This document shows positions 8,545-21,589 of a DNA stretch of 42,405 bases, piece after piece. The DNA comes from Candidatus Bipolaricaulota bacterium (GTDB lineage Bacteria > Bipolaricaulota > Bipolaricaulia > UBA7950 > UBA9294), in NCBI GenBank assembly GCA_021159055.1, contig JAGGSO010000030.1, positions 1 to 42,405 of the forward strand, read 5' to 3'. Position 1 is the stretch's first letter. Every line of letters starts with the position of its first letter. The translations under genes and the position numbers were made by a program. Below the pieces are notes generated by a model. The model ran no database searches. It saw only the letters and a program-made list of their open reading frames with translations, and had not been told where the DNA came from.

Positions 8545-9741
8545 ATGCGACGGATGGACTATAGAATAATCGCGCTTATTCTGGTTCTGCCCCTATTTAC
8601 GTGGGTATGGGGCTTTAGCGAATGCGCGGATTGCACCACTACCAGCAACTTTACCGGGACGGTTGGGGTGGAGTTCACCTTCGTTCCGGTCCCGCCCACA
8701 TCCTACGACATCACCACGGATGTATCGGCATCGTTCACCATCGCCGGGTTCTCCATCGGGATGCAGACCGCGTTCGACCTGGCCGGCTTCCAATCGCTGG
8801 GAGTCGATTCCTCTCTTGATCTGGGGGCGTTTGGGATCGGGGAAGAGATATTGTTTGACCCCTACTTCAGCTGGAACGACTTCTCTCTCACCGGACAGGT
8901 TGTTGGGGTGGAGCTTGGACTTGACCTGATACTCGCCAATATCGGGACGGTCCAAACCCCGAGCTACAGCATGGGGGCAGTCCTTTCGGTGAGCAGCGGA
9001 CTGATCGACGGCTTTTCCATCACCGCCCTCACCGGGTTCGGCGCAACCGACCTCGTGAACGCTCTGGACGGGGTGGAAGCTCCGTTCTCACATGACCTCC
9101 TCTATCTGTACAATCATCTTGCCGATCTCGCTGCGAACTCCCCCACGGTTTGGCGGGTGACGATCGTCCCTGGGTTCTACTTCGAGGAGGAGCTCGTCCG
9201 GCTCGAAGTCGACACCTGTGGATTGATCGCAAGCAGCACCACCTGGCTCGATACGAGCGGATTCTCCCAGGAGATCGCCGAACTCGGCTATCGGTTGACC
9301 GAGCCGAGTATGGCATTCCTTACCGCGGTCACGATAGACAGCTCATTCTCCTTAAGTGGGCTCGACTTCATCCTTGACGTTCAGATCGACCCGGTCCGGT
9401 TCACCTCCAAGACGAGCTTCGCCGCTCCGAACCCGCCGCTTTCGATCCCGGTGGTGTTCGACACCCAAGGGTTCGCGCTCTCCTTCGACTTTTCCGGTGT
9501 TCTCATAACCTCGGAGACCGACTTCGATTACAGCTTTATGTTCTCCCGCGAGCTGATCGGAATCGAGACCACGATCGATCCGGTCACTTTCACGAGCCTG
9601 ACCGAATTCGACTTGACCGGATTCGCCGGGGAATGGATCGAGGCGAGTGTAAAGTTCTCCGGGATCACCCTCTCCACTGCCGTTGACTTCGATTTCACTG
9701 GGATCACCCGGGCGAGCTTCGGGTTCTCCCTCACCTTCTAG
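8545..9741 (+). CDS. Secreted beta-rich protein, putative outer-membrane barrel
   Basis: 398 residues of a family I do not recognise. A signal peptide covers about residues 1-23 (RRMDYR, hydrophobic core, WVWG), followed by CADC. The rest is a long series of short alternating polar and hydrophobic stretches, many of the form FDLAGF, FSLTG, FDFSG and FDFTGI, and the chain ends in a hydrophobic-aromatic strand GFSLTF. This pattern and terminal Phe fit an outer-membrane beta-barrel or a secreted beta-solenoid. Internal FD-T/S-G spacing suggests repeats of roughly 20-25 residues. GGAGGAGG precedes the ATG. Only two bases separate it from the sigma factor gene, so the two are surely co-transcribed. 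Confidence 0.75.
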   Translation: MRRMDYRIIALILVLPLFTWVWGFSECADCTTTSNFTGTVGVEFTFVPVPPTSYDITTDVSASFTIAGFSIGMQTAFDLAGFQSLGVDSSLDLGAFGIGEEILFDPYFSWNDFSLTGQVVGVELGLDLILANIGTVQTPSYSMGAVLSVSSGLIDGFSITALTGFGATDLVNALDGVEAPFSHDLLYLYNHLADLAANSPTVWRVTIVPGFYFEEELVRLEVDTCGLIASSTTWLDTSGFSQEIAELGYRLTEPSMAFLTAVTIDSSFSLSGLDFILDVQIDPVRFTSKTSFAAPNPPLSIPVVFDTQGFALSFDFSGVLITSETDFDYSFMFSRELIGIETTIDPVTFTSLTEFDLTGFAGEWIEASVKFSGITLSTAVDFDFTGITRASFGFSLTF

Positions 9742-9743
9742 CG

Positions 9744-10394
9744 ATGGAAGAAGGAAAGAATCAGGACTTGCTCGACCTCCTCAAGCGCGCCGCGGAAAAC
9801 GACGAAGCCGCGCGGGCGGAACTCCTCAAGCGCGGACGGGAGTGGGTAAACGAGGTGATTGCAACCGAGTTCGCCCAGAGCGGGTTCTCGCATGAGGAGC
9901 TGTTTCACTCCGGTTACCTCGGCCTGTTGAGCGCGGTATACAATGCCGACCTCTCCCGCGGCAAGGATTTCTTCACCTACGCCCGCAATATCATCCGGGG
10001 AGAGATCCGCCAGTACATCCGCGAGCGGACGCGCCGGAGCCAGTTTCCCCGCTTCCTCACCGACTTAAATCGGCAAGTGGAGGCAGTGGAGGCCCGCTTG
10101 CTGAAAGAGAAGGGGCGCCTCCCCACCCTGACCGAGCTCGCCGATGCAGTAAACGTCACGGAAGAGGGACTCACCGAGATATTCAAGGCACGGGAGGCGA
10201 TCAACTACGTTTCCTTGTCCGCCGAACGTCGCCGCACCGATCCCGCCCCCACGGTCGACCTATCCAAGATCAGAAACAAGCGGCCGGAGCCGTTTCCGAT
10301 CCAGTACCGCATCCGCATCGCCTCCGCGCTGGAGCGCCTCTCTCACATCCAAGAAACTCTCACAAAAAGCCTATTCCCTCCGTCACAATCATAA
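9744..10394 (+). CDS. Sigma-70 family factor lacking region 4.2
   Basis: 216 residues. Region 2 is complete at roughly 18-97: DEAARAELLKRG, FSHEELFHSGYLGLLSAVYNAD for core binding, and FFTYARNIIRGEIRQYIRERTR for -10 recognition and melting. A region-3-like helical stretch follows (LPTLTELADAVNVTEEGLTEI). Region 4 begins with ALERLSHIQETL but the chain stops at SLFPPSQS, before the helix-turn-helix that reads the -35 box. The bases after the stop are AT-rich and do not continue region 4 in another frame that I can see. It may be a degenerate factor, one arm of a split sigma factor as in Bacillus SigO/RsoA, or a factor that uses extended -10 promoters. It is co-transcribed with the beta-rich protein and sits just before the cyclic-di-GMP leaders. 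Confidence 0.82.
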   Translation: MEEGKNQDLLDLLKRAAENDEAARAELLKRGREWVNEVIATEFAQSGFSHEELFHSGYLGLLSAVYNADLSRGKDFFTYARNIIRGEIRQYIRERTRRSQFPRFLTDLNRQVEAVEARLLKEKGRLPTLTELADAVNVTEEGLTEIFKAREAINYVSLSAERRRTDPAPTVDLSKIRNKRPEPFPIQYRIRIASALERLSHIQETLTKSLFPPSQS

Positions 10395-10450
10395 ACCATC
10401 ACTTTCAATGTCTAAAAATGCCAAATATGTGGCATAATGAGAGTGATGGT
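10395..10450 (+). promoter_or_regulatory. Nested inverted repeats around an extended -10 box
   Basis: An outer perfect 9-bp inverted repeat, ACCATCACT (10395-10403) and AGTGATGGT (10442-10450), encloses an inner 6-bp one, ATGCCA (10418-10423) and TGGCAT (10430-10435). The inner right arm merges into TGGCATAAT (10430-10438), which looks like an extended -10 box. The layout suits a promoter with an operator for the first riboswitch leader, or a structured 3' end of the sigma message. No U run follows. Confidence 0.45.
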
Positions 10451-10540
10451 CATTGACAAGTGAACCGAGAGGGAAAGAGAAAGTTCGAGGAGCAAATCCC
10501 GAAAGAAATCGGGTAGCTCCTTCCGAATCAAGATCAAAAG

Positions 10541-10564
10541 ATTGTGGTAGGTCTCTACCGCAAT
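10541..10564 (+). other. Hairpin in the first riboswitch leader
   Basis: ATTGTGGTAG (10541-10550) pairs with CTACCGCAAT (10555-10564) around a four-base loop, with one central T/G pair. A smaller hairpin, CCCGA with TCGGG, lies at 10498-10513. Both are upstream of the aptamers in the same predicted leader; function unknown. Confidence 0.5.
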
Positions 10565-10582
10565 AATCCACATCCTCTGCGA

Positions 10583-10732
10583 AGCACCTACAAAGGCAAA
10601 CCGCTCGAAAGGGCGGGACGCAAAGCTACGGACCTTCTAGGCAGCGCCCGTCAGGGCACTGCGAAAAGGGCAAACCAGGGGCGACCCTGGGACGCAAAGC
10701 CACGGGTCTCGGTTGAGACAGCCGGGCTGCCG
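10583..10732 (+). ncRNA. Tandem cyclic-di-GMP-I (GEMM-I) riboswitch, leader 1
   Basis: Two GEMM-I modules in series. Module B (about 10660-10732) is canonical: GGCAAACC at 10669-10676, a CCAGGG/CCCTGG stem closed by a GCGA tetraloop, GGGACGCAAAGC at 10689-10700, a GTCTC/GAGAC stem, and the 3' element GCCGGGCTGCCG at 10721-10732. Module A has GGCAAACC at 10595-10602, a stem closed by GAAA and GGGACGCAAAGC at 10615-10626, but its 3' half is rearranged and lacks the standard GGGYTGCC element. The class is known to bind cyclic-di-GMP (a subclass binds cyclic GMP-AMP). The RNA leads directly into the first small secreted protein gene. Confidence 0.9.
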
Positions 10733-10739
10733 CAGCCTG

Positions 10740-10792
10740 CCTAATGGTGGCCGAGCCGCTAGGTGCTCGAAAAAACAAACCATTAGGAGGTG
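10740..10792 (+). promoter_or_regulatory. Translational expression platform masking the ribosome binding site, leader 1
   Basis: CCTAATGGT (10740-10748) is perfectly complementary to ACCATTAGG (10779-10787), and the latter overlaps the AGGAGG ribosome binding site (10785-10790) for ATG 10799. Between them lies GAGC..GCTAGGTGCTC, whose CTAGG could pair with the CCTA of the left arm instead. The two pairings exclude each other, as expected for a switch that opens or closes the ribosome site. The same design is repeated at 11584-11634. Confidence 0.75.
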
Positions 10793-10798
10793 CTTTCA

Positions 10799-11254
10799 AT
10801 GAGGATGAACAAACTCGTAGTAGGTCTGTTGGTGCTGGGGTTGGCGGTGGCGATGATCGGACTTGCCGGATTTGCAGCGGGCAAGGGGCATATCAACCCC
10901 CTTCCTCCGATCCATGTACCGACCGCTTCGGTGGAGGATAACGTCAGCTGGACGATCCAGGGATTCGTCGAGCTCAAGATCGCGGACAACGCGTTCGACT
11001 TCGGGACGATCCCGGCCGGTGTCGATGAAGTCACCAAGGAGAACGCTAACACTCTGTTCGTGTTCAGCAACACCAGCTGGGCGCTCACCGTAGCCCTTTC
11101 CGGGGACGGGAGCGATCACCTGAAGGTCGGGCTGTCCGCGGATGAGGGAAAGCGCGACGCTAAAATCAGCGTCGACTACACCCTGTTCAATCTGCGGACG
11201 ATGGATCCGGGAAGCTACACCGCAATCGTCACCTATACCGTCACCGCCAAGTAA
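10799..11254 (+). CDS. Small secreted pilin-like subunit 1 under cyclic-di-GMP riboswitch
   Basis: 151 residues with a Sec signal peptide (RMNKLVVGLLVLGLAVAMIGLAGFAAG). The mature part is a single beta-rich domain: VSWTIQGFVELKI, FDFGTIP, LFVFSNTSWALTVALSG and a final SYTAIVTYTVTAK. The same blocks occur in the same order in the protein at 11641, so the two are paralogues. The FDFGTI block and the strand-like end recall spore-coat-U/sigma-fimbria subunits, but cysteines are absent and I cannot assign a named family. ATG 10799 is chosen because AGGAGG lies eight bases upstream; a second ATG at 10805 is possible. A strong hairpin follows the stop. Confidence 0.82.
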   Translation: MRMNKLVVGLLVLGLAVAMIGLAGFAAGKGHINPLPPIHVPTASVEDNVSWTIQGFVELKIADNAFDFGTIPAGVDEVTKENANTLFVFSNTSWALTVALSGDGSDHLKVGLSADEGKRDAKISVDYTLFNLRTMDPGSYTAIVTYTVTAK

Positions 11255-11267
11255 GCTAAAATCGTAG

Positions 11268-11291
11268 GGGCCGGCGCATCAGCGCCGGCCC
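11268..11291 (+). other. Strong hairpin after the first subunit gene
   Basis: GGGCCGGCGC (11268-11277) and GCGCCGGCCC (11282-11291) form a perfect 10-bp stem with an ATCA loop, 13 bases after the stop codon. No U run follows, so it is either a U-less terminator or a 3' stabiliser of the message. Confidence 0.65.
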
Positions 11292-11338
11292 TGCAGACCT
11301 CGTTCGGTTCTCGGTTCACTGATTTCGCATTGCTCCGC

Positions 11339-11366
11339 TTGACAAAAATATACTTGGCGGTATAAT
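11339..11366 (+). promoter_or_regulatory. Consensus sigma-70 promoter for riboswitch leader 2
   Basis: TTGACA (11339-11344), a 16-base spacer and TATAAT (11361-11366): both boxes match the consensus exactly, within an AT-rich patch of otherwise GC-rich DNA. Transcription would start near 11373 and give a leader of about 270 bases. It is the strongest promoter match in the window. Confidence 0.85.
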
Positions 11367-11447
11367 ATACTTGCGACAAGCTGATACAGGAGGTGTTATA
11401 GGAGAAACAAACAGTTCAAGCGTAGGTTTTGGCCTCATCTCAACAAG

Positions 11448-11576
11448 CGCCGAAGGGCAAACCGCGCGAAAGCGCGGGGCGCAAAGCTACGGCCTGTCGG
11501 TATGAACGAAACGGCAAACCGGGAGCGATCCCGGGGCGCAAAGCCGCGAGTCTCACGCAAGACTGTCGGGCTGCCG
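11448..11576 (+). ncRNA. Tandem cyclic-di-GMP-I (GEMM-I) riboswitch, leader 2
   Basis: Second copy of the design seen at 10583. Module B is canonical: GGCAAACC at 11513-11520, a CCGGGA/TCCCGG stem with a GCGA tetraloop, GGGGCGCAAAGC at 11533-11544, an AGTCT/AGACT stem, and CGGGCTGCCG at 11567-11576. Module A has GGCAAACC at 11456-11463, a GCGC stem with a GAAA loop and GGGGCGCAAAGC at 11476-11487, but only about 25 bases then separate it from module B, so it lacks room for a normal third stem and 3' element. Module A may be a decayed copy or a half-aptamer that acts together with B. Confidence 0.9.
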
Positions 11577-11583
11577 TGGCGTA

Positions 11584-11634
11584 CCTAATGGTGGCAGAGC
11601 TGCTAGGTGCTCAAAAATAAACCATTAGGAGGTG
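11584..11634 (+). promoter_or_regulatory. Translational expression platform masking the ribosome binding site, leader 2
   Basis: CCTAATGGT (11584-11592) pairs perfectly with ACCATTAGG (11621-11629), overlapping the AGGAGG site (11627-11632) that serves ATG 11641. The intervening GAGCTGCTAGGTGCTC hairpin is also shared with leader 1. Near identity of both platforms, beyond the aptamer, indicates duplication of the whole leader-plus-gene unit. Confidence 0.75.
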
Positions 11635-11640
11635 CTTTTG

Positions 11641-12150
11641 ATGAAGAGGCTTATCATTTTGCTGGTAGCAGCAGCGACGGTAGCGATGATTGGAACGATG
11701 GCGTTCGGGGATACGGCGATCGGCGGTAACTCCGCGAGCCTGTCGCCGGTCGTTACGTGGAACGTGAGCGGGTGGATCATCCTGTACATCCCTCACTCGG
11801 ACATGACGGTCGACCTCGGGACGATCGATGGGAATCTGTACGATCCGGAAACTGGGACGTGGACGCCGCTTGTTTCCTCGACCAAGAACGCGTACGTGTT
11901 CGCCAACCGGACTTACACCCTCACCCTGAGCGCGGCGAGCACCGGGACGGAGACCGCTGACTTGACCCGATTTGAGGTCAAGGGAGGCGATCTGACCGCG
12001 TTCACCCCGCTCGACAGCGATCAGACGATGGCGACCGGGGGAGCCGGGATTACGCATATCGACGACATCCAGTATGAGTACATCCCGAGCTTCGACGATG
12101 CTCCCGGTGACTACGCGGTTACCGTGACCTACACTGTTACTGCTCCGTAA
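11641..12150 (+). CDS. Small secreted pilin-like subunit 2 under cyclic-di-GMP riboswitch
   Basis: 169 residues; signal peptide about 1-23 (KRLIILLVAAATVAMIGTMAFG). Paralogue of the subunit at 10799: VTWNVSGWIILYI, VDLGTID, AYVFANRTYTLTLSA and the closing DYAVTVTYTVTAP align block by block, with an insert of about 20 residues in the middle. The conserved C-terminal strand YTVTA could be a donor or assembly strand, by analogy with pilins; this is inference. The start is ATG 11641, eight bases after AGGAGG. It has its own consensus promoter and a strong terminator, so it can be expressed separately from subunit 1. Confidence 0.82.
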   Translation: MKRLIILLVAAATVAMIGTMAFGDTAIGGNSASLSPVVTWNVSGWIILYIPHSDMTVDLGTIDGNLYDPETGTWTPLVSSTKNAYVFANRTYTLTLSAASTGTETADLTRFEVKGGDLTAFTPLDSDQTMATGGAGITHIDDIQYEYIPSFDDAPGDYAVTVTYTVTAP

Positions 12151-12163
12151 CTGCGACCAATGC

Positions 12164-12194
12164 GCGGGGCGGCCATGCGCCGTCCCGCTTTTTT
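12164..12194 (+). terminator. Rho-independent terminator after subunit 2
   Basis: GCGGGGCGG (12164-12172) pairs with CCGTCCCGC (12180-12188), nine pairs with one G-U, around a seven-base loop, and six T follow at 12189-12194. It closes the transcript 14 bases after the stop codon. Confidence 0.85.
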
Positions 12195-12199
12195 CTTGC

Positions 12200-12236
12200 A
12201 TCCGGGCTCTTTTCCCCGGTAGACTTACGCTAACCT
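12200..12236 (+). promoter_or_regulatory. Promoter candidate ATCCGGGC-N21-GCTAACCT for the chaperone-like gene
   Basis: ATCCGGGC at 12200-12207 and GCTAACCT at 12229-12236 are separated by 21 bases. The same two elements, with the same spacing, precede apbE (17025-17032 and 17054-17061). The second element fits a -10 box (TAACCT), and the first would lie just upstream of the -35 position. It stands 18 bases before ATG 12255. Confidence 0.45.
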
Positions 12237-12254
12237 GACTATGAGGAGGAACGG

Positions 12255-13403
12255 ATGCGCCGAGCGATCTTTGTCAGCGGAATCTTTACCATAATTCTGG
12301 TTTTTATCTCACTACTTGGGTGCTCCTTGCAAATATCCCAGATCGAGTTCGATCTGCACCTCTCTCCGGGCGGCTCAACGAGCCAGACGTTTCTGATCAT
12401 CAACGACGAATCACGCTCACAGGAGATCACGGTCTACCTGAACGACTGGGTCCGCACCGCAACCGGAGAGACGGACTTTTTCCCCCCGAACGACGCGCGG
12501 TGGCTGTTCCTGCGAAGCTTTACCGCTGGTGAACGGTTGGAGCTTGTGTACCACGTCTTGCCCCCGTCCTCCAATGTGACGGTGACCGGCACTTACACCA
12601 TCGGGAGCCCGACCGGTCGGGGGAAGATTGAAGGACCGGATAATTTCGCCAATCCTGCCGAATCCGCATCTCCCACGACCGGAGCTGTTCCGGTACGGAT
12701 CATCCGCACGATCACGCCGGACACGGACGGCGGGTTCGAAGTGCGGCTGCAAATCGATGCCTTGACGGACTTCGTTGGGCTGCGGATCGACGAGGTCTTT
12801 TCGTCCCACGTGACGGTCCACGCCGTAGAGAACGCCGGGGGGGAATTCGTCACCGTCTCCCGTTCCGCCAGCGATTGGATCACCGTCGCTCCCAGGAAGT
12901 TCACCCTCGCCCCGGGAGCGACGCAGGAGGTAACGTTCACCGTGAACGTTCCGGCCACCGGCGTGGACGGCACCTACTGGGGAGCGATCCTGATCGAGGG
13001 CTCTCCGCATCAGGTGGAGCGGGAAGGGGCGACCGTACTGGCAGTGGAGCGGTTCGGAGTGAAGGTTTACGTCACGATAACCGGAACCGAGGTGCGGGAG
13101 GGACGGGTGATACGGGTGAGAAAGGTGTCTCTCAATCCCCTCACCTTCAAGATAACGTTCGCGAACACGGGGAACGTGCAGCTTCGGCCCACCGGGACTG
13201 TGACCATCATCTCCCAATCCGGGGAGACGGTGCGGACGATCGCGGTGGAGGAGTTTCCCGTCCTCCCGGGAGCGGTACAGACGATAACAGTGAAGGATCC
13301 ATCATCTGATCCACTCCCCCCTGGGATCTATCGTGCGCTGGTGATGCTCGACTACGGCGGGGAGAACCCGGTCGGCGGGACGCGCGATTTCCGGGTGAAG
13401 TAA
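12255..13403 (+). CDS. Chaperone-like putative lipoprotein with Ig-like domains
   Basis: 382 residues. The N-terminus is a putative lipoprotein signal ending in SLLGC, so Cys23 could be lipidated. The next part, FDLHLSPGGSTSQTFLIINDESRSQEITVYLNDW followed by FFPPN, has the feel of the first strand set of periplasmic pilus chaperones and other Fn3/PapD-like folds. A second Ig-like unit is seen at about 205-260 (WITVAPRKFTLAPGATQEVTFTVNVP) and a third near the end (FKITFANTGNVQLRPTGTVTI). It is too long for a classical PapD (about 230 residues). Position between the subunit genes and the usher-like gene suggests subunit folding or delivery. That role is inference. Confidence 0.7.
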   Translation: MRRAIFVSGIFTIILVFISLLGCSLQISQIEFDLHLSPGGSTSQTFLIINDESRSQEITVYLNDWVRTATGETDFFPPNDARWLFLRSFTAGERLELVYHVLPPSSNVTVTGTYTIGSPTGRGKIEGPDNFANPAESASPTTGAVPVRIIRTITPDTDGGFEVRLQIDALTDFVGLRIDEVFSSHVTVHAVENAGGEFVTVSRSASDWITVAPRKFTLAPGATQEVTFTVNVPATGVDGTYWGAILIEGSPHQVEREGATVLAVERFGVKVYVTITGTEVREGRVIRVRKVSLNPLTFKITFANTGNVQLRPTGTVTIISQSGETVRTIAVEEFPVLPGAVQTITVKDPSSDPLPPGIYRALVMLDYGGENPVGGTRDFRVK

Positions 13404-13456
13404 CCGGAATCACTCGGGAAGGCGACAAAGGTCCGCTGCGGCTATTTTCCCGGTCC

Positions 13457-13485
13457 TTTCCTGCACCCGTGACTGTTGGTAACGT
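13457..13485 (+). promoter_or_regulatory. Possible promoter before the usher-like gene
   Basis: TTTCCT (13457-13462), a 17-base spacer and TAACGT (13480-13485). A TCCCGGTC just upstream resembles the TCCGGGC element at 12201-12207. Weak match; the message could equally come through from the gene upstream, 88 bp away. Confidence 0.3.
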
Positions 13486-13491
13486 TGAACC

Positions 13492-16401
13492 ATGAAACCG
13501 GGGAAGATGGGGGTATTCCTGTTCATCGTGGCGGCAGCAGTCGGTGCAGTGAATCTTGCTGCGTTCGCCGCCGGCGTGGAGGTGAGTGTCCTCTCCGGAA
13601 TCAAGGAGGTCGGCCCGGGAGAGTTCGTCACCCACGTCTTCTCCATCACCAACCAGGAAAGCACTTCCGACACGTTCGCCCTTACCTACACCGCCCCGAG
13701 CGGCTGGGGGCTACTCGGAGCCCCGGAGAGCCTCACCCTCGACGCCGGCGAGGAGGGAACGATCTTCTTGACGATAACCGTACCTCCGGGAGCGGCGGCC
13801 GGGGATTACTCGGTCGGGCTTACAGCTGTCTCCCAGAGTGATTCGAGCGTAGTGGCGAGCGCCATCGCAACGGTGCGGGTGCAGCCGGTGAACAAGGTCG
13901 AACTCATTCCACCGGTGGGGAAGAGCGCTCCCCCAGGGGGCAAGGTCGTGTATTCGTTCACGGTGGTGAATCGGGGGAACGCTCAGGACACGTTCAAGAT
14001 AGAGGCGAACTCCGCCCAGGGATTCCCGGTGCAGTTGTCGGACGAGGAGATCAGCCTCTCCCCGCAGGAGAAACGGGAGGTGACGGTGACGGTGAGCATC
14101 CCCTTGGATGCATCCCCAGGTCGCGATCCTCTCACTGTGCGGGTTGCGTCCACCCTCTACCCCGGTGTATCCGATCAGGCTGTCTGGTTCACCACGGTCC
14201 TCCCCCCGCCGCCGCAGGCGGTGGGAGGGACGCTCCTCGACGTATTGACAGGGAGGACTCGGCTTTCGCTCAAATACGACCTGTTCGACAATGACCTCGA
14301 CAGCGACTTCTACTTCTCCCTCGCTGGTGGGGTGTACGACGGTTACTTTTCTTCGACCCTCCACCTCTCCCCGCTCTTCGGTCCGGACCCGATCGAGGTG
14401 AGCTCGTTCACCATGCAGTACCGGAAGACTCCGGCCACCTACGCGATCGGGGACACCTCTCAGCGCCTCACCGATCTCCTCAGCGTCTACTGCCGGGGAG
14501 GGAAAATCGCGATCGAGGCCGACACTTACGATATCTACCTGATCGGGGGAGGAACGGAGAGCGGAGAGACGCGGTTCGGGGGGAGGATCTCCCTCGGCCC
14601 GGACGCAGCGAACCTCGGGATCGATTACATGGACGACCGTGACGCCACAAATCGGTCCGCGGCGTGGAGCCTGACCGCGGCGGCGGAGCCGCTCGACGGC
14701 TGGAAGCTCCGACTCGAAGGGGCCCTCGGGCTCGATGGGACGCTCACCAGCCGCGCGTTCTACTTCCGCACGCAGATCGATACCACCCCCTACTTCCTGA
14801 GCGGGGAGGCGTTCTCGGTCGGAACCTACTTCCCCGGCAACAGGAGCGATCAGGCCGGAATCTCCCTCTCCCAGCGGCTGCGCACGGACGACTTCTCCCT
14901 CGGGGCATCGTTCCGGCACGGATGGAACAACGTGGTCGGAGATCCCCTCGTTCAGACGACGATCACCGATGAGCTCGGGCTGAACGTCGAAGTGATCCCG
15001 ATCGAGAATGGACCACGGATCACCGCCACTACGGAGTTCACCTGGGACCGGGCCCCGGACCTGACGGCAGAGAACGAGGTCGATCGTCTCGTATCCATCG
15101 GGATCAGCGACCGCGACGCCCCGTTCCCCTATTCCTTCTCTGGCAAGGTGCGCGATCGGGTCGATAACGCCGCTGGGACCGGTTATCGCACCCTCACGTT
15201 CGACGAGGGGATCGGCCTGTCCACCGATGCGTTCGAGATCTACCTCGACCTCACCCAGGAGCGGGCGATCGACCTGAATGATGGATCGACCCTCTCCACC
15301 ACGAACGACGTCTCCATCGACCTCGACATCGAGAACTCTCCCCATTCGGTGAACCTGAGCATCTCCAACACCGAGGACGACTTCGACCTCTCCCTGAGCG
15401 GAGATATCGAGATCCTCGACGGCCTCGAACTCCGCCTGGGAGGAAGGGCGAGCTGGGACAGGGGGGATGCCGCCCCGCCGAGCTTCAGCTGGAGCGTGCA
15501 GATCTATTGGAACTTCGACCTCCCGGTCCCGTTCCTCGTCACCAAGGGGAGGATAGAGGGACGCGTGTTCATCGACACCGACGGAGACGGGAGCTACGAT
15601 GCGGGTGACCGGCCGGTCGCCGGCGCGATCGTGACGAGCGATTCCGCCGAGGTCTCCACCGATGCGAGCGGTCACTTCCGCTTCCCGCCGGTCGGTCCGG
15701 GGCGCTACACCCTGAAGGTGAGCCACCTCCCGGCCGACGCCGCGGCCGCGGACATCCCGCTGCAAGTCGATCTCCAGCCGGGGAGAACGGTGTGGTTTGA
15801 CATTCCTCTCACCCCGGTCGCTCACCTCTCCGGGAAGCTGTTCAACGATGAGAACAAGAACGGAACCCTCGATCCCGGCGAGGGCGGGTTCGGCCAGGTG
15901 CGGATCACCATCTCCGGCCCGGACGGGACGAAGGAGACCTACACCGAGGTCGACGGGAGCTTCTCGTTCACCGGGCTCGTTCCCGGGACCTACACCCTGT
16001 CCGTCGACGACTCTACCCTCCCGCCCCGGTTCGAGTTCACCACGGACAAGGAGATCACCATCGACGTCTCCCCCGCGACAAGCGAGCAGGTCATGATCGG
16101 GGGATACATCAAGCCGAAGCAGGTGGTGATCACGTTCCAGCCTCCAACGGCCGACTTCACCTACTCCCCGGATTCTCCCCGGGCCGGGGAGCCGGTCACG
16201 TTCGACGCCTCCGACGCGTTCGACTTCGACGGAAAGATCGTCTCCTATGCGTGGGACTTCGATGGTGATGGGGAGCCCGATGCAACCGGGGTCACTGTGA
16301 CCCACACATTCGCCCAGCCGGGAGATTACGACGTTACCCTCACCGTCACCGACAACGACGGGAATAATGATTCCCTCACTGATACGGTGACGGTCAAGTG
16401 A
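13492..16401 (+). CDS. Usher-like outer-membrane protein with Ig, SdrD-type and PKD domains
   Basis: 969 residues, secreted (signal peptide about 1-26). Order of parts: two NEW3/CARDB-like Ig domains, about 28-125 (ITNQESTSDTFALTY) and 130-230 (VVNRGNAQDTFKIEA); a long beta-strand-rich region, about 245-685, with barrel-like stretches such as YAIGDTSQRLTDLL, RAFYFRTQIDTTPYF and SFSWSVQIYWNFDLP; a carboxypeptidase-regulatory-like domain (GRIEGRVFIDTDGDGSYDAGDRP); an SdrD-B-like domain (GKLFNDENKNGTLDPGEGGF); and a C-terminal PKD domain (about 885-969, YAWDFDGDGEPDATG). Barrel plus plug-like beta-sandwich domains recalls fimbrial ushers. It could instead be a large adhesin. No ribosome site is obvious before ATG 13492. 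Confidence 0.72.
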   Translation: MKPGKMGVFLFIVAAAVGAVNLAAFAAGVEVSVLSGIKEVGPGEFVTHVFSITNQESTSDTFALTYTAPSGWGLLGAPESLTLDAGEEGTIFLTITVPPGAAAGDYSVGLTAVSQSDSSVVASAIATVRVQPVNKVELIPPVGKSAPPGGKVVYSFTVVNRGNAQDTFKIEANSAQGFPVQLSDEEISLSPQEKREVTVTVSIPLDASPGRDPLTVRVASTLYPGVSDQAVWFTTVLPPPPQAVGGTLLDVLTGRTRLSLKYDLFDNDLDSDFYFSLAGGVYDGYFSSTLHLSPLFGPDPIEVSSFTMQYRKTPATYAIGDTSQRLTDLLSVYCRGGKIAIEADTYDIYLIGGGTESGETRFGGRISLGPDAANLGIDYMDDRDATNRSAAWSLTAAAEPLDGWKLRLEGALGLDGTLTSRAFYFRTQIDTTPYFLSGEAFSVGTYFPGNRSDQAGISLSQRLRTDDFSLGASFRHGWNNVVGDPLVQTTITDELGLNVEVIPIENGPRITATTEFTWDRAPDLTAENEVDRLVSIGISDRDAPFPYSFSGKVRDRVDNAAGTGYRTLTFDEGIGLSTDAFEIYLDLTQERAIDLNDGSTLSTTNDVSIDLDIENSPHSVNLSISNTEDDFDLSLSGDIEILDGLELRLGGRASWDRGDAAPPSFSWSVQIYWNFDLPVPFLVTKGRIEGRVFIDTDGDGSYDAGDRPVAGAIVTSDSAEVSTDASGHFRFPPVGPGRYTLKVSHLPADAAAADIPLQVDLQPGRTVWFDIPLTPVAHLSGKLFNDENKNGTLDPGEGGFGQVRITISGPDGTKETYTEVDGSFSFTGLVPGTYTLSVDDSTLPPRFEFTTDKEITIDVSPATSEQVMIGGYIKPKQVVITFQPPTADFTYSPDSPRAGEPVTFDASDAFDFDGKIVSYAWDFDGDGEPDATGVTVTHTFAQPGDYDVTLTVTDNDGNNDSLTDTVTVK

Positions 16402-17021
16402 GCCGCTACGGTCGGGCGAGCGCCCGGCTCTACTCGCTCCTGATCGACCCGCTGCTGCGAAAGCTACGGGAGAGGATCACCGCACTGTGCATCGCGGAAG
16501 GGGTGACTGCTGCACTGGACATCGCGTGCGCCACCGGGGCGCAGTGTCGGAGCCTGCACTCCGCGGGGATCAGATCGACCGGGATCGACCTCGCTCCGGA
16601 GATGATCGCCGCTGCGCGGCGGATCAGCCCACCGGAGATCGAATATCTGATCGGCTCGGCCCTCGAGCTCCCGTTCCCCGACGGCACGTTCCCCGGAACG
16701 ATCCTCAGCCTGTGCCTGCACGAGCACCCGTTCTCCGAACAGGACCGGATGGTGGCCGAAGCGGTCCGGGTCACCCGTCCTGGCGGGGCGGTGATCGTCG
16801 CCGAGTACTCCCCGCCCCGCCGGCCGCGCCCGGAATGGTGGCTGATCAACGCGATCGAGCGAGTTGTGGGGGAGGAGCACTTCCGCAACTTCCGCAAGTT
16901 CGTGCGCGCGGGGGGGATCGTCCGGCTCGAGCCGCTCCTCCCCTCGATCGGACGGCGGGTTTCAATCTTCGGCGGTGGAGTGACGATCCTCGTGGCGCGT
17001 GTGCCAAAGCGCGCGGCTTGA
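16398..17021 (+). CDS. Class I SAM-dependent methyltransferase
   Basis: 207 residues, UbiE/Methyltransf_11-like. Motif I is a variant, ALDIACATGAQCRSL, where the usual second Gly is Ala; motif II acidic residue is in STGIDLAPEMIAAARR; PFPDGTFPGTILSLCLHE and RVTRPGGAVIVAEYSPP follow as expected. The GTG start overlaps the stop of the usher-like gene by four bases (GTGA), so translation is coupled. A role in modifying the surface system, or in lipid or quinone methylation, is possible, but the substrate is unknown. Overlap alone does not prove a shared function. Confidence 0.82.
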   Translation: MSRYGRASARLYSLLIDPLLRKLRERITALCIAEGVTAALDIACATGAQCRSLHSAGIRSTGIDLAPEMIAAARRISPPEIEYLIGSALELPFPDGTFPGTILSLCLHEHPFSEQDRMVAEAVRVTRPGGAVIVAEYSPPRRPRPEWWLINAIERVVGEEHFRNFRKFVRAGGIVRLEPLLPSIGRRVSIFGGGVTILVARVPKRAA

Positions 17022-17090: not shown

Positions 17091-18161
17091 GTGTCGAAGC
17101 ACACGCAGGAGGAGAGACCGCACTACCACAGATACCTGTTGGTGGTGATTGTTTTTGCCCTCGCCGCGGCGATCGCCGCGGACCGTGTCTTCTTCCGATC
17201 CCCCTGGGTCGAGCTCTCCGATCGTCGCTCGCTGATGGACACATGGGTGACGGTGACGGTGTACTCCCAGGACATGGGGGAAGCCAAACAGGCGATCGAG
17301 TCCGCCTTCTCCCGGATGGAGGAGGTCGTACACGCCACGTCCAATTTCGATCCGAACGCCGAAGCATCCCGATTAAACGAAGAAGGGAAGCTGGTGGATC
17401 CTTCCTCCGATCTGTGGACAGTGATTAGCGCGGCACAGCGCTATGCCCGGCTCAGCCGGGGAGCGTTCGACATCACGGTGGAACCGCTCCTCGAGCTGTG
17501 GAAGAACCCGGACGCCGACGGTAAACACCTGTGGGAGGTCGATCCCGCCACCCGCGACGCCCGCATCGCTGCGGCCCTCGTGCATGTCGGCCCGGACAAG
17601 CTCACCCTCACCCAGACAGGGTCGCACCGGATCATCTCCCTTGCTCCAGGGGCGAAGATCACCCTCGGGGGAATCGCCAAGGGATACGCGGTCGATCAGG
17701 GTCTCGCCGCCCTTCGCACCGCCGGGATCGCCCACGCGATGATAAACGCCGGCGGGGACATCGGAGTGTACGGGGGAAAGCCGGATGGGTCGGGATGGGA
17801 GATCGCGCTGCGCAACCCGCAGCGAGCCGAGGATATGCTCGCCCGGTTCGTGATCTCCGCTGGGGCGGTCGCCACCTCGGGGAACTACGAGCGTTACTTC
17901 GACCCGGCCGCGGAGGTGGGGCATATCATGGACCCCCGCACCGGCTACTCCGCCCACCGCTCGTCGAGCGCCACGGTGATCGCTCCGAACTGCATGGAGG
18001 CCGATGCCCTTGCCACGGCGACGTTCGTCCTCGGACCGAAAGACGGAATCGCTCTCCTCGATTCCCTTCCCGAGGCGGAAGGGCTTATCATCGGGTACGA
18101 TAACCCCCGTGAGCTTCACCGCACGGCGGGGTTGGAAAAGTACATGGAAGCGAAGGACTAG
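17091..18161 (+). CDS. apbE: FAD:protein FMN transferase ApbE
   Basis: Attaches FMN covalently to threonines of RnfD and RnfG, using FAD and magnesium. 356 residues with an N-terminal membrane anchor (about 15-31) and no lipobox, so it should face the periplasm. Family motifs: GGIAKGYAVDQ at 193-203, NAGGDIGVYG at 219-228, and MEADALATATF with Asp305 and Thr309 for metal binding. The start is GTG 17091 after GGGAGATTGA; no better start lies upstream. It ends two bases before rnfC, so the modifying enzyme is encoded directly with its targets. Confidence 0.93.
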   Translation: MSKHTQEERPHYHRYLLVVIVFALAAAIAADRVFFRSPWVELSDRRSLMDTWVTVTVYSQDMGEAKQAIESAFSRMEEVVHATSNFDPNAEASRLNEEGKLVDPSSDLWTVISAAQRYARLSRGAFDITVEPLLELWKNPDADGKHLWEVDPATRDARIAAALVHVGPDKLTLTQTGSHRIISLAPGAKITLGGIAKGYAVDQGLAALRTAGIAHAMINAGGDIGVYGGKPDGSGWEIALRNPQRAEDMLARFVISAGAVATSGNYERYFDPAAEVGHIMDPRTGYSAHRSSSATVIAPNCMEADALATATFVLGPKDGIALLDSLPEAEGLIIGYDNPRELHRTAGLEKYMEAKD

Positions 18162-18163
18162 AT

Positions 18164-19492
18164 ATGAACGAGATCTTGGAACTTCTCGGTTTGAAGCGGC
18201 ACGCCGGGGTTCATCCTCCGTACCGGAAGCTCTCCGCGGACTGCCCGATCGAGCAGGCCGAACTCCCTGAGCTGGTGACCCTCCCGCTGCAGCAGCACAT
18301 CGGCGCACCGGCGAAGGCGCTGGTGAAACGGGGGGATGAGGTCAAGGTCGGGCAATTGATCGGAGAGGCAGGTGGGTTCGTCTCCGCCCCGGTGCACGCC
18401 ACCGTATCGGGAACGGTGAAGAACGTCCTCCCAGTCCCGAGCCCGGTGACCGGAAAGCCCGTCCCCGGGGTGGTGATCGCGGCGGACGGGAAGGACGAGT
18501 GGGTCGAGCTCACGCCCGGCGACCCTGAGTCCATGTCCCCGGACGAGATGAAGGCGAGGATCAAGGATGCAGGGATCGTCGGGCTCGGCGGGGCGACCTT
18601 CCCCACCCACGTCAAGCTCTCCCCTCCCCCGGAGAAGCCGATCCATACCGTGATCGTGAACGGGGCGGAGTGCGAGCCGTACATCACCGCCGACGACCGG
18701 CTGATGCGGGAGCACCCCGATCGGATCTTGAGCGGACTGCGGATCGTGATGCGGATCCTCGGGGTGACCCGGGCGTTCGTGGCGATCGAGAGGAATAAAC
18801 CGGAGGCGATCTCGCGGATGCGGGACGCCCTCTCCCGCGCCAGTCTCCCGGGGGAGGTGCGCGTGACTCCGGTCCCGGCCCGATACCCGATGGGAGCGGA
18901 GAAGACGCTGGTGAAGACGCTCCTCGGAAGCGAGGTCCCGGAGGGAGGGCTTCCGATGGACGTGGGGGCGCTGGTGCAGAACGTCGCCACGCTGGCTGCC
19001 ATCCATGATGCAGTCGTGGTGGGAAAGCCGCTCGTGGAGCGCGTAGTCACCGTCACCGGGCTGGTCCAGACCCCGCGGAACCTCCTCGCCCGGTTCGGGA
19101 CTCCGGCGGCGGGGCTGATCGAGCAGTGCGGCGGGGTGCAGGAGGGAGCGGACGAGCTCATATTCGGAGGGCCGATGATGGGGATCGCCCAGCCGACGTT
19201 CGACACCCCGGTGATCAAGGGGACGAACTGCGTCCTGGTCAAGGAGAGCGAGGTCCGGCCTGAGCGTGACTGCGTCCGCTGCGGCAGGTGCGTGGACGCG
19301 TGTCCGATGGGGCTGATGCCGCTTCAATTCGTGAACATCGTGAAACAGAAGCAGTTCGAAGAGCTGCCCGCCTACCACATCCTCGACTGTGTGGAGTGCG
19401 GGTCGTGCGCGTACAATTGTCCGGCCAACATCCCGATCGTATCCTACATCAAGTCAGGAAAGGCGGAGCTGCGCAAGGCAGGGGTGAAGTAA
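18164..19492 (+). CDS. rnfC: Rnf complex subunit RnfC
   Basis: Peripheral NADH-binding subunit of the Rnf ferredoxin:NAD oxidoreductase, which couples electron flow to an ion gradient. 442 residues. The N-terminal barrel-sandwich part is at about 12-85 (VSAPVHATVSGTV), the FMN/NADH domain carries GLGGATFPTHVK at 140-151 and NGAECEPYITAD at 166-177, and two 4Fe-4S motifs lie at Cys370/373/376/380 and Cys409/412/415/419. No long C-terminal extension as in enteric RsxC. Its stop and the rnfD start share one base (TAATG). Confidence 0.95.
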   Translation: MNEILELLGLKRHAGVHPPYRKLSADCPIEQAELPELVTLPLQQHIGAPAKALVKRGDEVKVGQLIGEAGGFVSAPVHATVSGTVKNVLPVPSPVTGKPVPGVVIAADGKDEWVELTPGDPESMSPDEMKARIKDAGIVGLGGATFPTHVKLSPPPEKPIHTVIVNGAECEPYITADDRLMREHPDRILSGLRIVMRILGVTRAFVAIERNKPEAISRMRDALSRASLPGEVRVTPVPARYPMGAEKTLVKTLLGSEVPEGGLPMDVGALVQNVATLAAIHDAVVVGKPLVERVVTVTGLVQTPRNLLARFGTPAAGLIEQCGGVQEGADELIFGGPMMGIAQPTFDTPVIKGTNCVLVKESEVRPERDCVRCGRCVDACPMGLMPLQFVNIVKQKQFEELPAYHILDCVECGSCAYNCPANIPIVSYIKSGKAELRKAGVK

Positions 19493-20448
19493 TGGAAAAC
19501 GATAGAAAGCTCACGATAACTCCGGCGCCGCACCTGCACGGACCGGCGTCGATCACGCGCGACATGTACATCGTCGTCCTCGCCCTCCTCTTCCCCACCG
19601 CCGGGGCGGTCTACTTCTTCGGTGCGTACGTGATCCTGATGCTCGTCACCGCGATCGCCACCGCCATCCTCGCCGAGTACGTCGCCAAGTGGATGCGGCG
19701 ACGCCCGTTCCGGATGGACGGGAGCGCGGTCGTTACCGCGATCCTGTTCGTCCTGGTGATGCCGCCGCGCACCCCGCTGTGGGTCGTGATCGTGGGTACC
19801 GCGTTCAGCATCTGGATCGCCAAGGAGGCGTTCGGCGGGCTGGGACACAACGTGTTCAACCCCGCCCTCGCCGGACGGGCGTTCGCTACCGTCTCGTTCG
19901 CCGGGGCGTTGACCAACTGGATCGCGCCGGTTCATTCCTTCCTCGCCGACGGGGTGACGACCGCCACCCCGCTGAGCGAGAGCTTCACCACCAACCTGTC
20001 CCGGTGGGCGATGTACAAGGCGCTGTTCATCGGGAACGTCGCCGGGAGCACGGGGGAGACCTCGGCGATGCTCATCTTGATCGGAGGGTTGATCCTGATC
20101 GCGTTCGGGTTGATCCGCTGGCAGGTTCCGTTCTTCTACATCGGCACCGTGGCCCTGCTCAGCTGGGCCCTGGGTGAGGATCCGTTGTTCCAGATCCTCG
20201 CCGGGGGATTGTTCCTCGGCGCGTTCTTCATGGCGACCGACTACGTCACCACCCCGGTCACCACCCGGGGCAAGGTCATCTTCGCGATCGGGGCCGGGAT
20301 CCTGGTGGTGGTCATCCGTCGTTGGGGGACGATGCCGGAAGGGGTCTGCTATTCGATCCTGTTGATGAACGCAATCACCCCACTGATCGATCGCCACGTC
20401 CGTCCGCGGCCATACGGACTGGTCAAGAAGCGAAAGGAGACGGGATGA
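19492..20448 (+). CDS. rnfD: Rnf complex subunit RnfD (flavinylated)
   Basis: Membrane subunit of 318 residues with about nine or ten hydrophobic segments. The ATG at 19492 (MENDRKLTITPAPHLHGP) is chosen because it overlaps the rnfC stop; longer reading in this frame runs through rnfC. GLGHNVFNPALAGRAF is the conserved membrane block. DGVTTATPL at 153-161 is the predicted ApbE site, with Thr159 as likely FMN attachment residue. The stop overlaps the rnfG ATG (ATGA). Confidence 0.94.
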   Translation: MENDRKLTITPAPHLHGPASITRDMYIVVLALLFPTAGAVYFFGAYVILMLVTAIATAILAEYVAKWMRRRPFRMDGSAVVTAILFVLVMPPRTPLWVVIVGTAFSIWIAKEAFGGLGHNVFNPALAGRAFATVSFAGALTNWIAPVHSFLADGVTTATPLSESFTTNLSRWAMYKALFIGNVAGSTGETSAMLILIGGLILIAFGLIRWQVPFFYIGTVALLSWALGEDPLFQILAGGLFLGAFFMATDYVTTPVTTRGKVIFAIGAGILVVVIRRWGTMPEGVCYSILLMNAITPLIDRHVRPRPYGLVKKRKETG

Positions 20449-20978
20449 GGAAGAGTGAAGCATACCCGGTTTTGTTCCTCACCTTCGTCGTCTTGGTCGC
20501 GGTTGTCGTGCTCACCCTTACCAACTCGATCACCCGCGACAAGATCGCCCTCGCAAAGAAGCAGGCGGTGGCGGAGATGCTCTCGGCCCTGTTCCCGAAC
20601 ATGGATTCGTTCACCTACGACGACAAGACCGGGACGTACACGATCCTCGCCGACAAGACGACGATCGGATACGCATTCACCGCTGTGGGGCGCGGGTACG
20701 GCGGCCCGATCGATATCCTGATCGGGCTCAAGCCGGACAATAAGACCCTGCAGGGGATCAGGATCATCTCCCAGCAGGAGACCCCGGGGCTGGGGGCGAA
20801 GATCGTGGAGGCCTCGTTCCTCGACCAGTTCAGCGGAGTCAGCGTCGATCAGGTCAAGCTCGCCCGCAACGGGGGAAAGATCGATGCGATCACCGGGGCG
20901 ACGATCAGCTCGACCGCGGTGGTGAAAGGAGTACGGAACGCGATCGAGCAGCGCCTCGGGAAAGGGGGGACAGGATGA
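20445..20978 (+). CDS. rnfG: Rnf complex subunit RnfG (flavinylated)
   Basis: 177 residues: one N-terminal transmembrane helix (about 7-27) and a periplasmic FMN-binding domain. The flavin attachment motif DAITGATISS is at 147-156, with Thr153 as the FMN-carrying residue. QETPGLGAKI is the usual block ahead of it. ATG 20445 follows AAGGAGACGGG and overlaps the rnfD stop; the C-terminal stop overlaps rnfE by four bases. Length is typical for Rnf of anaerobes. Confidence 0.95.
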   Translation: MRKSEAYPVLFLTFVVLVAVVVLTLTNSITRDKIALAKKQAVAEMLSALFPNMDSFTYDDKTGTYTILADKTTIGYAFTAVGRGYGGPIDILIGLKPDNKTLQGIRIISQQETPGLGAKIVEASFLDQFSGVSVDQVKLARNGGKIDAITGATISSTAVVKGVRNAIEQRLGKGGTG

Positions 20979-21589
20979 GTTCGTTTTGGAAGAATCTCAC
21001 CAAGGGGATTGTAAAATCCAACCCGACGTTCATCCTCATGCTCGGGTTGTGCCCGACCCTTGCCGTCAGCACCTCGCTCGACAACGCGGTCGGGATGACG
21101 GCGGCGTTCGTGGTCGTCCTCGTTTTGTCCAACATCATCGTGTCGGCGATCAGGAACTACGTCCCTGATCGGGTGCGGATCCCGGTGTTCATCGTCATCA
21201 TCGCCACCCTGGTGAGCGTGGTCGACCTGATGATGCAGGGGTTCATGCCCGCCCTGAGCAAATCGCTCGGGATCTACATCCCCCTCATCGTGGTCAACTG
21301 CATCATCCTCGGACGGGCGGAGGCGTTTGCGCGGCGGAACGGGATCCTCGATTCGATCGCCGACGGGCTCGGGATCGGAATCGGGTTCGGGGTGGCGATC
21401 TTCCTCATCTCCTTCATCCGTGAGCTTCTTGGAACCGGGAAACTCGAGCTGTTCGGGTTTAAGCTGTTCTCGATCCCTGGCCTCGATCAGAACCCGGCGG
21501 CGATATTCCTGTTCCCGATGGGGGCGTTCCTCGTGATCGGCCTCCTCCTCGCGCTGTTCCGCCAGTTGGGGGTGAGCAAGTATGAATAG
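20975..21589 (+). CDS. rnfE: Rnf complex subunit RnfE
   Basis: Integral membrane subunit of 204 residues with about six helices, part of the RnfA/RnfE pair that holds an iron centre inside the membrane. Visible landmarks are NPTFILMLGLCPTLAVS near the N-terminus with its conserved Cys, and GIYIPLIVVNCIILGRAEAFA in the middle, where the second conserved Cys lies. The gene overlaps rnfG by four bases and rnfA by eight, so the message is read as a tightly coupled unit. Confidence 0.95.
   Translation: MSSFWKNLTKGIVKSNPTFILMLGLCPTLAVSTSLDNAVGMTAAFVVVLVLSNIIVSAIRNYVPDRVRIPVFIVIIATLVSVVDLMMQGFMPALSKSLGIYIPLIVVNCIILGRAEAFARRNGILDSIADGLGIGIGFGVAIFLISFIRELLGTGKLELFGFKLFSIPGLDQNPAAIFLFPMGAFLVIGLLLALFRQLGVSKYE

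Follow-up and report, generated by a model that had tools for sequence, protein, structure and literature searches.

Three described systems come closest to the locus considered here. Chaperone-usher pili (FimC/FimD/FimA, PapD/PapC, archaic Csu, and CFA/I) combine immunoglobulin (Ig)-like subunits, a two-domain Ig partner in the periplasm, and a 24-strand outer-membrane barrel with an inserted plug; their tip adhesins consist of a separate domain and a pilin module that lacks the N-terminal extension. WxL clusters of Gram-positive bacteria encode small WxL, large WxL, and WxLIP (DUF916-DUF3324) proteins, for the last of which modelling has led to a proposal of strand insertion into the WxL domain (PMC10599100), which is chaperone-like behaviour. 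As for tandem riboswitches, a review describes doublets and triplets that lie side by side (PMC9481103). The present locus occupies positions 8545–16401 of a contig of 42,405 nucleotides (nt) from a Candidatus Bipolaricaulota bacterium (JAGGSO010000030.1, assembly GCA_021159055.1; the whole contig is referred to as the window). It appears to be a cyclic di-GMP (c-di-GMP)-induced surface-fibre locus, chaperone-usher-like in its working but built from other families; this is the reading we favour, and we regard it as fairly probable. Bipolaricaulota is a diderm phylum known mainly via metagenomes.

The original prediction for this block had listed a secreted beta-rich protein, a sigma factor, two riboswitch-controlled pilin-like genes, a chaperone-like lipoprotein, and a large barrel protein. 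According to open reading frame (ORF) calls and Rfam, all of these parts are present at about the positions it gave. The features, with the evidence for each, are as follows.

8545–9741, + strand: P1, secreted beta-rich protein of 398 amino acids (aa) (ORF call)
9744–10394, + strand: P2, SigB/F/G-like sigma factor without region 4.2 (family match; orthologues end likewise)
10584–10634, + strand: element 1, 5' half of the outer c-di-GMP-I aptamer, i.e. 5' strand of helix P1, helix P2, and 5' arm of helix P3 (Rfam and pairing)
10660–10735, + strand: element 1, complete inner c-di-GMP-I aptamer within the helix P3 arm of the outer one (RF03167, 73.6 bits; RF01051, 71.9 bits)
10746–10766, + strand: element 1, 3' half of the outer aptamer, i.e. 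3' arm of helix P3 and 3' strand of helix P1 (pairing, covariation)
10740–10790, + strand: element 1 expression platform, stem 10740–10748/10779–10787 reaching into the Shine-Dalgarno (SD) sequence AGGAGG at 10785–10790 (folding)
10799–11254, + strand: P3, small pilin-like subunit with signal peptide, ATG at 10799 (alignments; same family as P4)
11446–11492, + strand: element 2, 5' half of the outer c-di-GMP-I aptamer (Rfam, 34.5 bits, and pairing)
11503–11578, + strand: element 2, complete inner c-di-GMP-I aptamer (RF01051, 58.5 bits)
11593–11611, + strand: element 2, 3' half of the outer aptamer (pairing)
11584–11632, + strand: element 2 expression platform, stem 11584–11592/11621–11629 reaching into the SD sequence (folding)
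11641–12150, + strand: P4, small pilin-like subunit with signal peptide, ATG at 11641, predicted chaperone-usher pilin fold (AlphaFold2, Foldseek)
12255–13403, + strand: P5, two-domain Ig protein of the WxLIP family, chaperone candidate (profile comparison)
13492–16401, + strand: P6, usher-like outer-membrane protein of 969 aa with signal, two NEW3 Ig domains, 26-strand barrel, transthyretin-like, SdrD_B, and PKD domains (Pfam, AlphaFold2, Foldseek)

The block proved real, and its conservation extends through the phylum. Of 100 phylum genomes, 86 have a P5 homologue and 67 a pilin homologue; among the 38 high-quality genomes (completeness of 90% or more, contamination of 5% or less) these counts are 37 and 32, respectively. 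The conserved core consists of the riboswitch, the small pilin-like subunits (often plus a large adhesin-like subunit), P5, and P6. In about 20 loci of families f1, f3, f4, f5, f6, f7, and f8 (families, genomes, and loci carry our own labels), the P5 gene precedes the P6 gene immediately or nearly so, and pilin genes often adjoin the pair; co-conservation, which had been suggested as a check, is thus observed, the genes travelling together across seven families. A c-di-GMP-I core is found at most 330 nt upstream of 68 of the 72 small-pilin ORFs in the loci examined, versus 23 of 1361 other ORFs. When loci L198–L227, which were retrieved via the riboswitch itself, are excluded, the core precedes 45 of 49 small-pilin genes in loci retrieved by protein similarity alone. 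None of the 26 large-subunit modules has a c-di-GMP-I riboswitch of its own. The putative c-di-GMP control of the subunits is retained even where gene order differs. As for P6, its named relatives are "Candidatus Bipolaricaulota" and "Acetothermia," and a scan of GTDB contigs for close relatives of P6 gave, outside the phylum, matches limited to the C-terminal region, mainly to the PKD domain.

P3 and P4 belong to the same family, in line with their earlier description as pilin-like paralogues. The AlphaFold2 model of P4 (39 homologues) is a confident beta-sandwich with predicted local confidence (pLDDT) above 95 in most of the core. Its top 15 Foldseek matches in the Protein Data Bank (PDB) are all chaperone-usher subunits, including CfaB, CsuA/B (archaic), FimA, and the pilin domain of PapG, with modest E-values starting from 7e-5. 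Small subunits share the C-terminal G-x-Y strand with chaperone-usher subunits and carry an N-terminal extension before the fold, which is poorly ordered in the P4 model. The large subunits of relatives (roughly 300–340 aa) begin with a separate domain or an additional pilin module, followed by a pilin module that starts at about profile column 30–56 (mostly near 46 in family f4) and lacks the extension of the small subunits. The subunit family has no noteworthy Pfam match and none to Pfam WxL, and a search of PDB sequences with the pilin profile returned nothing useful. In profile comparison with WxL, 23 C-terminal columns alone align, at 84.8%; full WxL membership was not accepted for the subunits, as they have no full-length WxL match.

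According to profile comparison, P5 is a two-domain homologue of WxLIP, for which binding to pilin-like WxL domains has been proposed. Its profile matches the solved WxL-interacting protein EfmWxLIP1 (9i1y, 9i25) over both domains with an E-value of 4.6e-8. Against six WxLIP proteins encoded on plasmids in lactic acid bacteria, hhalign returns 96.7% across 209 columns, with controls near zero (pilins versus WxLIP, 0.5%; WxLIP versus PapD chaperones, 1.0%). The PF06030 match in P5 is above the cut-off, PapD_N is matched by 1 of 21 members (E 0.017), and no C-terminal membrane helix of the WxLIP type is seen in the 21 aligned P5 sequences. Domain 1 has an insert of roughly 100 residues within the window's genus. 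The description of P5 as a chaperone-like lipoprotein stands in part: it is a two-domain Ig protein related to WxLIP, but the LLGC lipobox occurs only in the source genome, and the nearest orthologues read SYS and AAA instead. Lipoprotein status was rejected because the cysteine is not conserved, which makes P5 probably a soluble periplasmic protein. P5 homologues of families f4, f3, and f8 (L125, L127, L128, L129, L131, L132, L150, and L151) end in a dockerin-like calcium-binding repeat, as known from cellulosomes (PF00404 in 8 of 21 members).

The AlphaFold2 model of P6 (pLDDT 88) consists of a signal helix, two Ig domains, a barrel, and then transthyretin-like, SdrD_B, and PKD domains. The 969-residue barrel with SdrD and PKD domains that had been proposed is thus recovered as a predicted barrel, and usher matches rank ahead of any other PDB entry: the best Foldseek matches are the FimD and PapC ushers (E 1e-14 to 3e-12). 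The N-terminal Ig pair resembles P5 (hhalign 97.4%). Pfam Usher (PF00577) is not among the families reported for 30 P6 members, and it is found in 0 of 100 phylum genomes, with a positive E. coli control. In several f1 genera (L145, L146, and L149), P6 reaches 1270–1600 aa via extra PKD domains and is encoded behind a gene of about 2000 codons, away from the pilins. In families f3 and f7 (L153 9841–10572; L154, L155, L135, and L136), an extra gene after P6 repeats its N-terminal Ig pair with a signal or anchor of its own, possibly representing a second chaperone-like part.

Regarding the subunit leaders, Rfam reports c-di-GMP-I matches above threshold at 10585–10633 (39 bits), 10660–10735 (74 bits), and 11503–11578 (58 bits), and a fourth match at 11446–11501 (34.5 bits) is slightly under it. 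In element 1, the segment just before the SD sequence, GGTGGCCGAGC-CGC-TAGGTGC, is conserved and can be read as the 3' half that the upstream c-di-GMP-I copy lacks. Together with the solitary 5' half it forms helix P1 (GCACCUA/UAGGUGC) and helix P3 (GCU-A-CGG-ACC/GGU-GG-CCG-AGC), and the complete inner aptamer sits within the helix P3 arm of this outer aptamer, i.e. the two are nested. A tandem arrangement was rejected because the first copy has no nearby 3' half, while the conserved 3' half pairs from beyond the inner aptamer. Riboswitch control of both pilin genes, as given in the original prediction, holds with respect to the aptamers and their pairing, but the nesting had been missed.

In total, 24 such elements were gathered from more than 12 genera of families f1, f2, and f4, 23 of them nested and one with a plain hairpin, and were aligned with the inner part omitted (type a, n = 13; type b, n = 11). 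Pair cells of the outer aptamer are paired in 99.7% (type a) and 96.4% (type b) of cases, compared with 28–44% for slid partners. None of 500 shuffles attains the covariation scores; this count is not a probability, since the sequences are related. Outer helices P1, P2, and P3 are kept in the 24 elements with compensatory changes; for helix P1, the strands of which are about 155–175 nt apart in the window RNA, such changes occur in both types. With no structure supplied, RNAalifold returns the c-di-GMP-I fold for type a except for the top of helix P3, and for type b it recovers helices P1 and P2 with a different helix P3. The element with a plain hairpin (L223) is an un-nested form of the outer aptamer: a short hairpin replaces the inner aptamer, and an Rfam match spans the whole element with 59.1 bits, slightly above threshold. 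The ORF after the element is a pilin by profile in 22 of 24 cases; one locus is incomplete and one has no call. The conserved three-helix junction of c-di-GMP-I is present in the inner aptamers, in the outer structure, and in its un-nested form. The Rfam label "c-di-GMP-I-GGC" for the inner aptamers was treated with caution, their junction being GCAAAG and that of the model GCGAAG. Thus, given the covariation, the un-nested homologue, and the conservation in three families, each "half riboswitch" represents the 5' half of an outer c-di-GMP-I aptamer, the 3' half of which lies beyond the inner one. In the open-licence literature, no paper was found on nested c-di-GMP aptamers, nor one that connects riboswitches with Bipolaricaulota or c-di-GMP with Acetothermia.

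According to folding energies, which leave out tertiary contacts and the ligand, c-di-GMP probably switches subunit synthesis ON, since the ligand-free fold hides the ribosome site and the closed outer aptamer exposes it. An SD stem, 9 or 10 bp in length, lies over or right next to the SD sequence in 19 of 24 elements, and the ligand-free minimum-energy fold contains this stem in 18 of these 19. Its anti-SD strand overlaps the outer helix P3 arm (GGU), and closing outer helix P1 in elements with an SD stem costs roughly 7 to 19 kcal/mol. For element 1, enforcing the inner aptamer alone brings the outer aptamer into the best fold (−103.7 versus −100.6 with the SD stem; the free optimum is −108.7). 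Single aptamers of family f4 point the same way: helix P1 shares 4–6 nt with the anti-SD strand in 12 of 12 platforms whose stem covers the SD sequence. The window's inner aptamers, which are putative binders of c-di-GMP, keep the ligand contacts G20, A47, and C92 (numbering of the solved aptamer).

Under the favoured reading, the 9-bp stem in each subunit mRNA would reach over the SD region as long as c-di-GMP is absent. Binding would fold the inner aptamer and bring the arms of the outer aptamer together, upon which the outer aptamer would take part of the anti-SD strand, the ribosome site would become free, and subunits would be made; with nesting, a steep and possibly cooperative response is expected. 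The subunits would pass via Sec to P5, which would cap their incomplete Ig fold in the periplasm, and P6, with periplasmic Ig domains on both sides of its barrel, would receive and export them, subunits being joined by exchange of N-terminal extensions (donor-strand exchange). In many relatives, the large subunit with its separate domain and extension-less pilin module might form the fibre tip, and the fibres would lie on the cell surface and may serve attachment. The chaperone-usher logic of the original prediction is supported insofar as the folds of subunit and barrel match, P5 is an Ig protein, and the genes are co-conserved; assembly into a fibre is what these parts suggest. Unrelated folds (in the models of P4 and P6) and a lack of co-conservation, the two outcomes it had named as speaking against it, were looked for, and neither was found.

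Several results weigh against this reading. With comparison alignments built from E. coli K-12 fimbrial operons, hhalign gives 0.6% for P6 versus ushers, 2.1% for P5 versus PapD chaperones, and 15.8% for the subunit versus chaperone-usher pilins; membership in the classical chaperone-usher class is rejected by these profile tests, which bears out the earlier remark that the parts differ from known classes. The P6 barrel (residues 249 to 683) has 26 strands, no loop longer than 13 residues, and no plug, the domain arrangement is unsure because pTM is 0.57, and for the barrel alone the Foldseek lead of ushers over TonB receptors is small (2e-7 versus 2e-6). The pilin profile search found no large tip-like subunit in the window genome, and several f1 genera keep P6 away from the pilin-P5 cluster. 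One alternative is a diderm WxL-like, non-polymeric complex on peptidoglycan or an S-layer, made of small and large Ig-like subunits with P5 and tethered to the outer membrane by P6. The homology of P5 to WxLIP, the set of small subunit, large subunit, and WxLIP shared with WxL clusters (PMC10599100, PMC9772566), the PKD domains of varying number at the end of P6, and its frequent encoding away from the subunits agree with such a complex. We nevertheless consider it unlikely, given that chaperone-usher pilins and ushers are the best matches of the subunit and P6 models, that P5 lacks a membrane helix, that the subunits have no full-length WxL match, and that an N-terminal extension is present on the small subunits and not on the large ones. 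P6 might also be an unrelated outer-membrane porin or adhesin, with just the subunit-P5 pair linked and the subunits surfacing by another route (e.g. a type II-like or unknown exporter). Such a role would account for the missing Usher profile match, for barrel-only structural scores near those of other barrels, and for the separation from the pilin-P5 cluster in some genera. It appears distinctly improbable in view of the roughly 20 loci, from several families, in which P5 and P6 are neighbours, the relation of the flanking Ig domains to P5, and the top barrel matches, which are filled by ushers.

As for the RNA, the outer aptamers carry U or A at position 92 where the inner ones have C, and this position pairs with the ligand in the solved c-di-GMP-I aptamer. 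The outer aptamer may therefore bind more weakly, recognise another dinucleotide, or merely relay the signal. In addition, nearest-neighbour energies do not favour the outer fold of element 2 even with the inner aptamer formed. Both points count against the favoured reading and for a different one, in which the upstream half-aptamer is a functionless decayed duplicate and the RNA an ordinary single riboswitch, or in which c-di-GMP turns synthesis OFF: the outer aptamers lack C92, unassisted energies favour the SD stem, and element 2 does not flip in the model. This, too, has a low probability in our view, as decay is at odds with outer helices kept by compensatory changes in 24 elements and with the un-nested form L223, and the outer 3' half overlaps the SD-covering stem.

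The two genes upstream of the pilins are part of the cluster in family f1 (G000, G001, G002, G009, G010, and G013), and in family f9 the sigma gene lies between pilin and P5. Orthologues of P1 are found beside the cluster in L122, L123, L124, L233, and L235; no family matches P1, which is probably an outer-membrane barrel. The sigma factor, previously called atypical, indeed stops short of region 4.2 in every f1 homologue seen (window 9744–10394 and the same five loci), and the f9 homologue (L237 8940–9761) retains this region. It is unusual for a sigma factor to be conserved and yet lack the part that binds the −35 element. A frameshift was judged unlikely because homologues in four genera stop at about the same point.

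The 1.62-Mb source draft genome has nine c-di-GMP-I riboswitch matches, four of them inside the block, and four GGDEF matches. Other riboswitches (L160 8152–8749; L158, L159, and L161) lie ahead of genes for a third pilin, a CBM96 protein, a subtilase-like protease, a predicted outer-membrane protein, and a short ribbon-helix-helix-like protein; together, the riboswitch-preceded genes would make up a small c-di-GMP surface regulon. A gene for a chagasin-type (I42) protease inhibitor (L160 7252–8091) adjoins the third pilin. Downstream of the block, a UbiE-like methyltransferase gene (window 16398–17021) overlaps P6 at its end and is also retained by the two closest genomes (L122 and L123); it is followed at 17091–21589 by an ApbE gene and an apparent Rnf complex operon, i.e. 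ordinary energy metabolism.

More tentatively, the locus could define a class of its own among systems for outer-membrane fibre assembly: a 26-strand platform without a plug would act with a WxLIP-type chaperone to secrete donor-strand fibres. Such a class would connect Gram-positive WxL clusters with chaperone-usher pili and would be controlled by nested c-di-GMP aptamers, in which one ligand would pre-organise the second site. If the overall reading is right, a whole phylum of mostly uncultured diderms would make chaperone-usher-like fibres without a protein of the known usher family. Through the WxLIP-type partner, Gram-positive WxL clusters, the assembly of which is unclear, would be tied to donor-strand pili. 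The nested leader would represent an RNA device with two aptamers of the same class, one within another, on a single platform, and would offer a testable route to steep, switch-like control. Paired "partial" riboswitch matches in annotations may be halves of nested ones.

In comparison with chaperone-usher pili, the block shares Ig-like subunits that have a G-x-Y strand at the C-terminus and an extension at the N-terminus, a two-domain Ig periplasmic partner, an adhesin-like large subunit without extension, and, in the computed model, an outer-membrane barrel with N- and C-terminal Ig-like domains. It differs in having no detectable sequence relation, a plug-less barrel with 26 rather than 24 strands, NEW3 pairs as N-terminal domains of P6, PKD domains, and c-di-GMP riboswitches before the subunit genes. 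With WxL clusters it has in common a WxLIP homologue over both domains, a set of genes for a small subunit, a large subunit, and WxLIP, and a similar last strand of the subunits. In contrast to them, it belongs to a diderm host, P5 lacks the membrane helix, an outer-membrane barrel is added, and there is no full-length WxL match. Finally, tandem c-di-GMP-I riboswitches (PMC9481103; triple-tandem Bc3-5, PMC4759541) resemble the leaders in that two c-di-GMP-I aptamers per leader are expected to sharpen the response. Their aptamers, however, lie side by side, whereas those of the block are placed one inside the helix P3 arm of the other and share a single expression platform.

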